DNA from: Flavobacterium psychrophilum
GTDB lineage: Bacteria; Bacteroidota; Bacteroidia; Flavobacteriales; Flavobacteriaceae
Reading direction: 5' to 3'
Length of the DNA stretch: 10,234 bases
Assembly (NCBI GenBank): GCA_945861915.1
Contig: CAMAWK010000077.1
Span: 1-10,234 of the forward strand
The translations under genes were made by a program, and so were the position numbers. Below are positions 5,159-7,469 of the stretch, piece after piece (within the stretch, counting starts at the first letter, position 1; each line of letters opens with the position of its first letter). The notes under the pieces are model-generated. The model was not told the DNA's origin, did no database searches, and worked only from the letters and a program-made list of their open reading frames with translations.

Positions 5159-5253
5159 GATTGCTGATTTTTGATTTAGGATTAACGATTTTTGATTTAA
5201 AAAACGGATATTTTTAAACATCTAAAATCATAAATCGTTACTCATCAATCTGA
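5159..5253. repeat. Two facing arrays of degenerate GATTnnn heptamers
   Basis: On the plus strand 5159-5200 divides into six 7-base units: GATTGCT, GATTTTT, GATTTAG, GATTAAC, GATTTTT, GATTTAA. On the minus strand, about 5250 down to 5216, units of the same kind run toward it: GATTGAT, GAGTAAC, GATTTAT, GATTTTA, GATGTTT. As a result 5184-5198 can pair with 5225-5239 (14 of 15 bases) around a 26-base loop. The array fills the gap between the adenosyltransferase stop and the DUF2795 promoter. There is no T-run after the stem, so it is not a standard terminator. Confidence 0.7.
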
Positions 5254-5257
5254 AATG

Positions 5258-5827
5258 TTATTTTCTAGGAATCCATTTTACTTCCTCTGCTTTCAAGTCG
5301 AAAGACAACTTCCGTGCCAATACAAAAAGGTAGTCAGAAAGTCGGTTTAGGTACATTATAACTCTTTCGTTTATGGGTTCGTTGTGGTCTAGTTGTACCG
5401 CCAATCGTTCTGCACGGCGACAAACACATCGGGCGATGTGACAATATGACACCGTAGTATGACCGCCCGGTAAAACAAAATGAGTCATCGGTGGCAAGGC
5501 TTCTTCCATTGTATCGATTTCTTTTTCGAGTAACTCGATATCCGTTTCAAGAATCCCTAGTTTTTGTAAACGCAATTCGCCATTTTTCATCACCTCTTTT
5601 TCAGGAGGTGTGGCTAGAATAGCACCCACAGTAAACAGTCTATCTTGAATTTCGATTAAAATCTCTTTGTAATTAGAATCGATTTCTTGGTCACGAATAA
5701 GTCCTATATAGGAATTGAGTTCGTCAACAGTTCCATAACTTTCAATTCGGATATGATCTTTAGGAACTCTTGTTCCTCCAAAAAGTGCTGTGGTTCCGGT
5801 ATCGCCTGTTTTTGTGTATACTTTCAT
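5258..5827 (-). CDS. PduO-type cob(I)alamin adenosyltransferase
   Basis: The enzyme transfers the adenosyl group of ATP to cob(I)alamin (or cobyrinic acid a,c-diamide), making the adenosylcobalamin used by enzymes such as methylmalonyl-CoA mutase; it acts in the cytoplasm, normally as a trimer. The 189-residue length is normal. Family motifs are all present: the N-terminal ATP-binding YTKTGDTGTT (4-13), GTVDELNS (32-39), FVLPGG (117-122), the CRRAER helix (136-141) and YLNRLSDYLFVLAR (159-172). ATG at 5827 begins MKVYTKTGD, the usual family start. It follows the ABC ATPase gene by 67 bases on the same strand and could be in its transcript; the gap holds a heptamer array. No B12-dependent enzyme, B12 transporter or riboswitch is visible nearby, so the ATPase need not be linked to B12. 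Confidence 0.95.
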   Translation of the reverse strand: MKVYTKTGDTGTTALFGGTRVPKDHIRIESYGTVDELNSYIGLIRDQEIDSNYKEILIEIQDRLFTVGAILATPPEKEVMKNGELRLQKLGILETDIELLEKEIDTMEEALPPMTHFVLPGGHTTVSYCHIARCVCRRAERLAVQLDHNEPINERVIMYLNRLSDYLFVLARKLSFDLKAEEVKWIPRK

Positions 5828-5830
5828 CTT

Positions 5831-5865
5831 GGTTCTGGGTTTTGGGTATTAGGTTTTGGGTACTG
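5831..5865. repeat. Array of five GGTnnTG-type heptamers
   Basis: The plus strand divides exactly into GGTTCTG, GGTTTTG, GGTATTA, GGTTTTG, GGTACTG. GGTTTTGGGTA occurs twice, 14 bases apart. It begins three bases upstream of the adenosyltransferase start codon, so it forms that gene's immediate leader. The same kind of array, with the odd TTA-ending unit also in third place, lies inside the methyltransferase gene at 6935-6969. Confidence 0.75.
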
Positions 5866-5894
5866 AAATTTGCAATCTACCTTCTTCTATCTGA

Positions 5895-6581
5895 TTACTT
5901 TACTGAGTCACTTTCAATCGTTCCGTCACGCAAACGAATAATTCTTTTGGCATGAGCTGCAATATCTTCTTCGTGGGTTACTAAAATGATGGTATTTCCA
6001 TTTTGGTGAATATCTTCTAGTAGTTTCATGATTTCGTCAGAAGTTTTACTATCTAAATTTCCTGTGGGTTCATCTGCCAGAATGATGGAAGGTGAGTTTA
6101 CCAAAGCGCGTGCAATTGCTACACGTTGTCTTTGTCCTCCAGATAGTTGATTGGGTTGATGATCCATTCGATCGCCTAAATTTACTTGTTGGAGTACTTT
6201 TATGGCTCTTTCTTTTCGTTCGGATTTTGAATATCCAGCATAAATCATGGGTAATGCCACATTATCTAACGCAGTGGTTCTAGGTAAAAGATTAAACGTT
6301 TGAAAAACAAAACCGATTTCTTTATTTCGAATTTCGGCTAGTTCATTATCATGCATTTGGCTCACATCTTTTCCGTTTAAAATATAATTTCCAGAAGTTG
6401 GTGTGTCTAAACAACCTAAGAGATTCATTAAAGTCGATTTTCCTGAACCCGAAGGTCCCATTAGGGCAACATATTCGCCTTTGTTGATTTCTAAATCAAT
6501 TCCTTTTAGAACATAAACAATCTCATTTCCAAGAACAAAATCTCGTTTTATTTGGGTTATTTTAATTAATGGATTTGACAT
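5895..6581 (-). CDS. ABC transporter ATP-binding protein, LolD/MacB type
   Basis: A 228-residue ATPase subunit with every catalytic motif: Walker A GPSGSGKST (42-50), Q-loop Q94 in FVFQTFNLLP, signature LSGGQRQR (146-153), Walker B IILADE (166-171) followed by PTGNLD, and the switch histidine H203 in LVTHEED. The combination of GCLDTPTSG, FVFQTFNLL and DEPTGNLDS is typical of the LolD/MacB/FtsE group, which works with MacB-type permeases on lipoprotein release, export of peptides or drugs, or cell division. No permease is in the window, so the partner and substrate cannot be told; flavobacterial genomes usually carry several separate MacB-type permeases. ATG at 6581 gives the normal N-terminus. 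It lies 108 bases after the methyltransferase gene and 67 bases before the adenosyltransferase. Confidence 0.95.
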   Translation of the reverse strand: MSNPLIKITQIKRDFVLGNEIVYVLKGIDLEINKGEYVALMGPSGSGKSTLMNLLGCLDTPTSGNYILNGKDVSQMHDNELAEIRNKEIGFVFQTFNLLPRTTALDNVALPMIYAGYSKSERKERAIKVLQQVNLGDRMDHQPNQLSGGQRQRVAIARALVNSPSIILADEPTGNLDSKTSDEIMKLLEDIHQNGNTIILVTHEEDIAAHAKRIIRLRDGTIESDSVK

Positions 6582-6598
6582 TTAGTTGTTTAAAGTTT

Positions 6599-6628
6599 AA
6601 AAATGGTTGATGCCAAATAGGACAACCA
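6599..6628 (-). terminator. Possible weak terminator between the methyltransferase and the ABC ATPase
   Basis: On the minus strand TGGTTG pairs with CAACCA (6623-6628 with 6604-6609) across a 13-base loop and is followed by TTTTT. The stem is only six pairs and the loop long, so termination would be weak. If transcription starts at the candidate promoter near 6648, this hairpin would sit in the ATPase leader. Confidence 0.35.
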
Positions 6629-6647
6629 ATGTTTAATAATGTTACAA

Positions 6648-6678
6648 CAAATTTAAACAACTTTAAACTCTTAAACAA
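6648..6678 (-). promoter_or_regulatory. Candidate promoter of the ABC ATPase gene
   Basis: On the minus strand TTG (6676-6678) is followed after 20 bases by TAAATTTG (6648-6655), matching the Bacteroidetes consensus within one base of spacing. It sits within the low-complexity TTTAAAC cluster, where chance matches are likely. Confidence 0.4.
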
Positions 6679-6689
6679 TTTAAACTTTT

Positions 6690-7469
6690 TTAAACTCTAA
6701 TAACAAAATGTTCTTTTTCTTGTTCTCGTCTAAAGAAAACCAATCCCCACTGAAAAGTATCGATTGTTACAGTCACTTTCGAATGGTTTTTTATAATTTC
6801 CCAAGCTTCTTCCATTTCTGCAGACCAATGAATATCATCAAAAATCCAAACTGTTTCATTTTTGATAGTTGGTAAAAGTGATTCGAAATAGGCTAAAGTT
6901 GCTTTTTTAGAATGATTGCCATCGAAGTATATTAGGTCTTGGGTCTTGGTTTTTAGGTCTTGGGTTTTGAAATAATTTGAAAATTCGGTTACATTTGACT
7001 CGACATTTTTGATATTAAATTCTTGGAAACCGATTTGTGCCTGTTTGGCTGTTTCAGGACAACCTTCGAGCGTGATTATTATTGCATTTGTATTTCCCAA
7101 AGCCAAAGCTGTTGTGGCTAAACCCAAAGAGGTTCCAATTTCTAAAACAAAATCGGGCTTAAAATAATTAGTTATTCGAAATAATAATTGGGCTCTTTTT
7201 GGACTGATTCCTGCGTTTTTAGCAATTTCACTAATCGGTCTTGTGTTAGATTTAAAAACTTTAGATCCTGCGCCAAAATCGGCAACTTTAATGGAGTTTT
7301 TGTTTTTTAAAAACGAGTTTCGATAATCGGTTAAAATGGCATATTCAGATTTTTGTTTTTTGTCATAAAAACAGTTGGTTGCCAAATTGAAAACAAAAGG
7401 AGAATGAACTGCATGTTCGTTTTTGGAATACCATAGAAATTTTAGATAAGATTTTATTTGAAAAAGCAT
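6690..7469 (-). CDS. O-methyltransferase-like class I SAM-dependent methyltransferase
   Basis: A 259-residue soluble protein. Residues 107-122 (FVLEIGTSLGLATTAL) are the glycine-rich SAM-binding motif I of a Rossmann-fold methyltransferase; TLEGCPETA (133-141) has the acidic residue at the end of strand 2 that usually binds the ribose. LIYFDGNH (179-186) and WIFDDIHWS (208-216) resemble the metal or substrate strand positions of O-methyltransferases. The N-terminus (KNEHAVHSPFVFNLATNCFYD) is one I associate with a conserved Bacteroidetes family of unknown substrate. Residues about 168-179, TQDLKTKTQDL, are a 7-residue repeat encoded by a heptamer array and look inserted just before the LIYFDG strand. 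The stop codon overlaps a TTTAAAC repeat. ATG at 7469 fits the conserved start MLFQIKSYLKFLWYSKNEHA. No substrate is inferred. Confidence 0.88.
   Translation of the reverse strand: MLFQIKSYLKFLWYSKNEHAVHSPFVFNLATNCFYDKKQKSEYAILTDYRNSFLKNKNSIKVADFGAGSKVFKSNTRPISEIAKNAGISPKRAQLLFRITNYFKPDFVLEIGTSLGLATTALALGNTNAIIITLEGCPETAKQAQIGFQEFNIKNVESNVTEFSNYFKTQDLKTKTQDLIYFDGNHSKKATLAYFESLLPTIKNETVWIFDDIHWSAEMEEAWEIIKNHSKVTVTIDTFQWGLVFFRREQEKEHFVIRV
6928..6969. repeat. Heptamer array inside the methyltransferase coding sequence
   Basis: The plus strand divides into GGTCTTG, GGTCTTG, GTTTTTA, GGTCTTG, GGTTTTG (6935-6969), preceded by a weaker unit TATATTA. TTAGGTCTTGGGT occurs twice, exactly 21 bases apart (6932-6944 and 6953-6965), so the reading frame is kept and the protein gains the repeat TQDLKTK/TQDL. 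The array is very close to that at 5831-5865. Confidence 0.75.

Follow-up and report, generated by a model that had tools for sequence, protein, structure and literature searches.

Within a 10,234-nucleotide stretch of Flavobacterium psychrophilum DNA (GenBank assembly GCA_945861915.1, contig CAMAWK010000077.1; the whole stretch is referred to below as the window), three of four short arrays, at sites that we call A, B and D, are genuine repeats with a period of 7 bases, and about half to two thirds of the readable orthologous sites at A, B and D keep lag 7, usually with other words. We tentatively interpret these fixed-pitch arrays, with a confidence that falls just short of an even chance, as a class of elements in Flavobacterium: hairpin-forming sequences at gene edges that resemble repetitive extragenic palindromic (REP) elements in place and shape, together with local copying in a 7-base register at site D, which lies inside a methyltransferase gene. 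The unit of such an array combines a constant core of 4-5 bases (for example, AATC, ACTG or CTYAG) with a rigid pitch of 7 or 8 and freer bases in between. Inverted pairs are common, the T-rich arm first and the A-rich arm second, with outer ends that tend to abut coding sequence; the arms bracket the intergenic region and can fold into a hairpin. Several word families coexist in one genome, and a given site changes family between close species.

Fixed-pitch arrays in the window and in related genomes

An initial annotation of the window had described four degenerate arrays in one gene cluster that share a 7-base unit length. Measured against 500 dinucleotide shuffles per region, lag 7 was the top lag in the gap holding A (5062-5257; identity 0.46, z 3.9), in the core of A (5157-5200; identity 0.68, z 4.1, equal to lag 21), in the gap holding B (5828-5894; identity 0.62, z 5.9) and at D (6930-6975; identity 0.64, z 4.5). 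Lag 14 was likewise raised in these regions (z 3.4 to 4.5), as was lag 21, except over the whole A gap (z 1.8), and Tandem Repeats Finder returned period 7 at 5157-5198, 5831-5861 and 6935-6969. The observation therefore stands for three of the four places: site C is a tandem pair only, in a gap (6582-6689) whose best lag is 10 (z 3.3) and where lag 7 reaches z 1.4 (p 0.11). In five further gaps within the window, lag 7 was not in excess (z -2.7 to 0.9). Head-to-tail 7-base units beyond those of shuffled sequence, as in heptameric simple sequence repeats, are thus found except at C; uniform units, which slippage would be expected to give, occur often at D, slightly in AATC arrays and only roughly at window A, and are absent in an 8-base family with the unit CTYAGNNN (the octamers, below). 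The mirror of A, which had been followed to 5250, is real and represents the second arm of a hairpin; neither this nor the position of D within the methyltransferase gene had been noted in the initial annotation.

For comparison, we collected methyltransferase ortholog loci with flanks of up to 10 kb, keeping the best 80 of 384 relatives; these are mostly named Flavobacterium and share common ancestry, so that counts over them are not independent. Gaps of the resulting 81 sequences were unusable when a gene was missing or when the gap was shorter than 15 or longer than 700 bases. Lag 7 was significant (p<0.05) in 37 of 70 extracted gaps at site A (p<0.01 in 14), in 28 of 54 at site B (p<0.01 in 26) and in 55 of 81 sequences at site D (window included), compared with 1 of 46 in a neighbouring gap, E. 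The best period at B was 8 in 23 and 7 in 21 of the 54 gaps; at D it was 7 in 48, 13 in 19 and 14 in 10 of the 81 sequences. The words themselves vary, at D from AATCTAC, CGACTTT, CACTGAA and AAGACCC to CTTCCCG, CAACCAT, AACTCAT and others. A strong genome-specific dialect was considered and not retained, the signal being weak: CGACTTT occurs at 3-5 sites (including D) in the three genomes searched that use it at D versus 0-2 in 15 others, and AACTCAT was matched in 15 of 18 genomes. The initial annotation had also held that its interpretation would be refuted by arrays conserved at the same sites, as ordinary regulatory sequence, in distant relatives; this is partly what we see, in that the AATC-GTT arm of A occupies this site in 7 of 70 sequences (window included), some of them distant. 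One locus, titled as a Lentimicrobium metagenome-assembled genome (L063), falls with Flavobacterium on the tree and carries the site-D word AGACCCA; it is probably a mis-binned contig. Between site A and the DUF2795 start, a block ACGTTCTTAA (window 5143-5152, minus strand), followed by what we take to be promoter-like sequence, is present in most of the site-A gaps listed although the adjoining array is replaced.

We next consider 800 kb from nine Flavobacterium genomes that were reached via the ortholog loci, at arbitrary positions (400 kb of genome G001 and 400 kb of eight others). This sample contains 19 period-7 arrays (2 coding), 10 of period 8 (none coding) and 10 of period 14 (1 coding), versus 3, 2 and 0, respectively, in one Markov control; counts for the remaining periods between 2 and 15 range over 0-9, and arrays of periods 6, 9 and 15 are mostly coding. 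The part from G001 alone holds 8 period-7 arrays where 0.3 are expected, and also 7 of period 15. Seven as the common unit length is thus borne out by the excess at period 7 and has to be shared with period 8. Autocorrelation of the kind proposed in the initial annotation, applied to the pooled intergenic DNA of the 80 loci, gave a similarly mixed outcome: lag 7 showed the largest excess over shuffles of 40 lags (+0.0244), with lag 6 close to it (+0.0196), lag 8 at +0.0085, and weak signals at lags 14 (+0.0041) and 21 (+0.0074).

The statement that the arrays are not one element copied about holds between the window sites; A, however, is itself a member of a dispersed family. The 17-mer ATCAAAAATCGTTAATC from the 3' arm of array A (5180-5196) has 17 exact copies in G001 (3.8 Mb) and is matched in 16 of 20 Flavobacterium genomes, with a reversed control giving 0 in all 20; across the taxonomic family, it is found in only 12 of 249 genomes. 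Copies keep the inner spacer order at many unlinked sites, while loops and outer units vary. When all 17 copies of G001 were fetched, the GATT arm came first in 3 of 3 two-copy loci; six further pairs of this family were fetched because they were already such pairs. Outer ends lie within 21 nt of a called coding edge in 16 of 30 cases (20 fetched loci). A second family was followed by its GGAATTT 17-mer: five genomes hold 64, 59, 50, 42 and 15 exact copies, five others hold 0-2, and the control gave 0. Four CTYAGNNN units in a row, counted as overlapping matches, occur 258, 173, 155, 118, 103, 75 and 62 times in seven genomes, 4 times in one and not at all in two, while the reversed control was 0 in seven genomes but 20, 8 and 18 in the other three; the matches listed for G002 amount to at least 59 separate arrays. 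Hairpins that are palindromic, lie outside genes and are dispersed in many copies are therefore seen in the A, GGAATTT and CTYAG families, and not at window B or D. REP elements and bacterial interspersed mosaic elements (BIME) are defined by a conserved palindromic unit of 20-40 nt; in the present families, unit number and outer spacers vary and the inner core alone is fixed. Rfam gave no match up to E 1, which excludes a known RNA family at that threshold, and a plasmid- or phage-borne element was rejected since the site-A hairpin of locus L009 has no blastn match at E 0.01 in plasmid and phage collections. In two species (loci L128 and L138), A-family arms stand 491 nt apart and enclose a called open frame, as though the bracketed unit could be a gene and not a gap.

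With genes called as open frames only, 15 of the 26 arrays with period 7 or 8 that are intergenic in the 800-kb sample come within 8 nt of a coding edge; placing arrays at random in the same gaps predicts 6.7 (standard deviation, sd, 1.7), and none of 5000 simulations exceeded 14. The 15 divide into 8 at starts and 7 at stops. The octamers were inspected in 19 pairs, chosen for being pairs and with starts set at the first ATG: the outer end comes within 16 nt of coding sequence for 14 of 18 left and 13 of 19 right arms. Broken down by type of edge, stops are favoured, with 20 of 22 compared with 7 of 15 for starts. Loops range from 7 to 224 nt, some with terminator-like hairpins as judged by eye. 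For 27 of 44 arms, versus 0.13 of random positions, four consecutive A, equivalent to a T-run leaving the gene, lie inward of the arm at a distance of no more than 12 nt. Adjacent octamer spacers are identical in 7 of 76 cases (0.092; 0.106 expected), and in a larger set the fraction of distinct spacers is 0.92 versus 0.84 expected (sd 0.03), compared with 0.65 versus 0.71 (sd 0.03) in AATC arrays. Core and pitch of the octamers are thus kept while neighbouring spacers are no more alike than chance, indicating that these arrays are not the product of simple slippage. When inverted pairs were sought regardless of polarity, the T-rich arm came first in 10 of 10, largely orthologous site-B copies among those listed.

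On the gene-sense strand of the window, the GATT arm of site A starts at a stop codon and the AATC arm ends before the shared block, and the pair folds at -19.6 kcal/mol. Against 30 shuffles, the folding z had a median of -3.0 at A (below -3 in 35 of 70 gaps) and of -2.0 at B (below -3 in 22 of 50).

Heptamers inside the methyltransferase gene

At site D, the array was read in fixed phase to a conserved Leu codon, and the copying analysis used a Markov null. Pooled identity at lags 7, 14 and 21 was 0.63, 0.57 and 0.52, versus 0.30, 0.27 and 0.30 in 1462 other segments of the same genes, and an identity of at least 0.6 was reached by 46 of 81 D segments and 0 of 1462 controls. Units agree at 0.634 within a species and at 0.504 at the same position between species. 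The last unit matches the three upstream units of its own species at 0.573, compared with 0.443 when species are shuffled (sd 0.012; none of 1000 shuffles went above 0.485), a contrast that is inflated by shared ancestry, although sister species often differ in word. As 7 is not divisible by 3, successive units fall into different reading frames, so that selection on amino acids cannot create the period; the 7-base register of the copying at D is thus left unexplained by the reading frame. Among the period-7 arrays that lie within coding sequence in the 80 loci, D accounts for 33 of 38 (1271 open frames scanned, in loci centred on that gene).

In the draft genomes that use them (G005 and G086), the D words AAGACCC and CTTCCCG form exact tandem pairs only at D, suggesting that the words were made in place. 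One element copied between the window sites was rejected on the same grounds, with the proviso that degenerate copies would escape such a search. Elsewhere, among 18 genomes searched for each word, G097 has AAGACCC pairs at two places and G095 a CTTCCCG pair at one. In a predicted structure, the D residues fall between a helix (163-169) and a strand (179-183), with a predicted local distance difference test score (pLDDT) below 50 over 174-184; as the model was built from only 31 close sequences (mean pLDDT 65.5), it was used only for the placement of helix and strand and for the uncertainty at 174-184. We propose that at D, as in other homogeneous arrays, slipped or transiently misaligned copying in a 7-base register may make the units alike, and that it would be tolerated here because the stretch codes for a variable loop.

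An old trait of the family was considered and set aside, given that a lag-7 identity of 0.6 was reached in only 2 of 30 readable orthologs from other Flavobacteriaceae (14 of 44 loci had no site readable by motif; 85 of 90 genomes had some match, and not every genome was read). In one of the two (L191), two heptamer families lie within a longer loop, and L192, unreadable by motif, has a still longer, heptamer-rich D loop. A separate heptamer array (AACAAAC, CACAAAC) is found in L192 at 95-190, just upstream of the methyltransferase frame with this expanded loop. Palindromes like TCCCGA..TCGGGA stand in or beside arrays in several loci (the D loop of L005, site A of L040 and L057, site B of L067 and L079, and L122), and the arrays may be insertion targets. 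In the coding D loop of L005 the palindrome is in frame, with an apparent 5-base duplication and one heptamer lost as judged by eye; it is an element separate from the array.

Competing readings and known heptamer repeats

Under the reading of a Flavobacterium class of hairpin-forming gene-edge arrays, the intergenic copies may act as extragenic hairpins between neighbouring transcripts, in 3'-end formation, insulation or mRNA protection, and the families may move between species by recombination of intergenic DNA. The periodicity, dispersal, prevailing polarity, edge position, free octamer spacers and family switching are computed; any function of the arrays is inferred. Several points weigh against the reading. 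Edge placement is partly a consequence of short gaps: within the cluster of the 80 loci, 27 of 37 arrays are flush where 13.2 are expected, and outside it 12 of 29 (5.6 expected, simulated maximum 13). The polarity rule (T-rich left, A-rich right) is a tendency only, being followed by 11 of 15 flush arrays in the unchosen sample and, for the 80 loci, by 19 of 27 within the cluster and 11 of 12 beyond it, and many arrays are single-armed, including window B and D. In octamer pairs, arm-to-arm spacer identity is 0.435 versus 0.408 for shuffled arms (sd 0.034; other registers 0.44-0.49); spacers of the two arms are thus unmatched, no hairpin pairing is seen beyond the cores, and a correction of spacers from arm to arm, which we had considered, leaves no such signal. 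Site C is not supported, with lag 7 significant in 4 of 15 gaps only (a poor test, since most C gaps are about 1 kb or more) and a median folding z of -0.6 (below -3 in 2 of 13). Gap E, between DUF2795 and SecA, holds an ordinary, terminator-like hairpin with A- and T-runs (4799-4829 of the window) that has no periodic arms and served as a non-periodic control; it has a median of -5.8 (below -3 in 43 of 46), such that a strong hairpin needs no periodic arms. Nor does window A resemble an intrinsic terminator with its G+C-rich stem and T-run, the stem being A+T-rich and without a T-run. At D, copying is seen and how it happens is a proposal; no gain or loss of units was seen among the orthologs.

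Family switching is likewise to be read with care, because of the kinship of the 80 loci, and because the species tree is a quick one of 75 rows with 27 of 72 inner forks weak and the A and B types were assigned by patterns of our own making. On this tree, array types require 31 changes at A versus 34.3 for shuffled labels (sd 1.6, minimum 29) and 20 at B versus 24.4 (sd 1.6, minimum 19), and the exact word at D 58 versus 64.2 (sd 1.3, minimum 60), below all 500 shuffles; a different typing scheme, applied without a null, gave 37 changes at A and 23 at B. The tree signal is present but slight, and array types that simply follow the species tree were rejected on this basis. Pairs of loci at a tree distance of about 0.02 can have unlike site A (L068/L074 and L015/L024). 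Whole intergenic alleles could move by recombination between species, or new types could form at a site.

A bolder version of the same reading, which we regard as possible though on balance unlikely, is a gene-edge code. Inverted short-core arrays with a pitch of 7 or 8 and free spacers, flush with gene edges (for octamers, stops above all), would keep their architecture while the word is exchanged between species, and a trans-acting reader or copying enzyme with a 7- or 8-base step would set transcript or gene borders and occasionally write into coding loops such as D. Should the array architecture prove functional at all, a large bacterial genus, some of whose genomes hold scores of arrays, would have a means of marking gene borders that has received little description.

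Alternatively, the arrays might be a pure mutational by-product without function, in which slippage has a preferred 7-base register wherever sequence is unconstrained and template switching yields the inverted arms. We judge this unlikely, yet it draws on much of the D evidence (units homogenised within species and out of codon register, exact word pairs nowhere else in the two genomes checked), on the about equal division of unchosen arrays between start and stop edges, as if only coding constraint stopped them, and on the report that heptamers are the most abundant long-repeat class in most genomes, attributed to polymerase slippage (Mrazek 2007, via PMC4679880). The process that makes 7-base repeats, as suggested in the initial annotation, is supported by D and by the lag-7 excess beyond the window, but a single slippage process of that kind does not cover the octamers, where core and pitch are kept and the spacers are not. 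The inner spacer order that the A family keeps at unlinked sites also speaks against a by-product, as do twenty 20-kb stretches of other Bacteroidota, which hold 2 period-7 arrays (L110 with 8,000 masked bases; masking checked in two stretches) versus the 8 in 400 kb of G001. If the mutational account applies, D would be an unusually clean natural assay for 7-base-register copying, namely a coding loop with a changing word and a period that codon selection could not have created. On either account, the old question of why heptamers dominate bacterial repeats becomes testable in the tractable F. johnsoniae.

Dispersed mobile hairpins, of the miniature inverted-repeat transposable element (MITE) or REP type, that insert beside genes and have periodic ends would account for site switching as insertion or replacement, and would fit the many near-identical cores per genome, the inverted arms, the extragenic location and the absence of families from some species searched. 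However, the freely varying loops and outer units, the terminator-like hairpins in some loops and the lack of plasmid or phage matches for the L009 element leave us doubtful of this account. To a similarly low degree we entertain binding arrays, where a protein or RNA reads the core at a pitch of 7 or 8 at gene ends (a cold-shock protein, S1 or a Rho-like factor, Rho being our own suggestion) and families track their readers. A multimeric reader would be expected to select for just this combination of constant core, rigid pitch and unconstrained spacers, and S1, Csp or Csr were proposed for TAACTGA heptamers next to start codons (PMC4679880); different words at the same site in sister species are, however, hard to reconcile with a conserved reader, here putative, and D is located in a coding loop. 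Since binding arrays overlap with our preferred explanation, the likelihoods that we attach to the readings do not add up to one. Finally, a phase-variable switch, in which a change of heptamer number at D shifts the frame, has the classic layout of a 7-base unit within a gene but is very improbable, D having only about 4-5 units, often degenerate, and no internal stop among 80 orthologs, in a search across species that favours intact genes.

Heptameric repeats are known in cyanobacteria as short tandemly repeated repetitive (STRR) sequences, and the genera Gramella, Aequorivita and Elizabethkingia belong to the Flavobacteriia. Direct repeats of the heptamer TAACTGA have been described in Beggiatoaceae, Cyanobacteria and Bacteroidetes (MacGregor 2015, PMC4679880), in the three genera just named near start codons and with other heptamer repeats in the same gaps. 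They resemble the present arrays in their 7-base units, mostly intergenic and near start codons, in one set of seven that is reversed right after a stop codon, and in the other heptamers of the same gaps in Gramella and Aequorivita; they consist of one word (PMC4679880), whereas here we find many words, mirrored arms, variable spacers around a fixed core, a family with 8-base units, sister species that differ in family and a site within a gene. The GGGNATC and GGGGA(C/T)T heptamers of Xanthomonas and Nostoc are likewise found mostly between the same genes in relatives, with variable sequence and length, but are G-rich and quadruplex-forming, in contrast to the A+T-rich hairpins of several families seen here (PMC4692102). 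REP and BIME share with our arrays the extragenic position next to genes, the many dispersed copies and the inverted arms, and differ in having a fixed palindromic unit, in place of which the present arms are periodic arrays (PMC2817692, PMC12306157); a REP survey tabulates two Flavobacterium species (PMC12306157), and the term Flavobacter is absent from the main text of another repeat survey (PMC4060949). The BrickBuilt MITE of Porphyromonas gingivalis is also an intergenic Bacteroidota element with tandem repeats and inverted ends, but has 23-base units in 19 copies, 49-591 nt from the nearest genes, compared with a pitch of 7-8 and often flush positions here (PMC4596501). Heptamer repeats are thus already known elsewhere, while for the Flavobacterium set of many-word, fixed-pitch, mirrored arrays no description was found in the literature searched, most subscription journals lying outside the coverage of that search.

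Coordinates and gene context

Positions of the arrays and adjoining genes in the window
Feature	Position	Strand	Description
DUF2795 gene (PF11387)	4840..5061	-	downstream of site A
Array A, 3' arm	5152..5201	-	AATC units at 7-base pitch on the gene-sense strand; spacers AAA, GTT, CTA, AAA, AGC, AAC
Array A, 5' arm	5219..5257	-	degenerate GATT units beginning directly after the cobalamin adenosyltransferase stop codon
Cobalamin adenosyltransferase (PF01923)	5258..5827	-	gene between sites A and B
Array B	5831..5865	-	GGTnnTG on the plus strand, AACC-like in gene sense; ends 3 bases before the cobalamin adenosyltransferase ATG
ABC transporter ATPase (PF00005)	5895..6581	-	gene between sites B and C
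Site C	6588..6601	+	tandem GTTTAAA pair just upstream of the ABC-transporter start; gap not period 7
O-methyltransferase (PF13578)	6690..7469	-	contains array D
Array D	6935..6969	-	heptamers within the methyltransferase gene, residues 167-179, between predicted helix and strand

The window has a G+C content of 33% and is Flavobacterium-like DNA. Besides the genes of the table, its minus strand carries MbnP-like, SecA and RmuC genes, and its plus strand an epimerase-like gene. At 1355-1378 lies a palindrome-like sequence, AGATTGCTTCGTACCTCGCAATGA, that resembles GAGATTGCTTCGTTCCTCGCAATAAC in the loop of the array copy of locus L132 and looks like another dispersed repeat.

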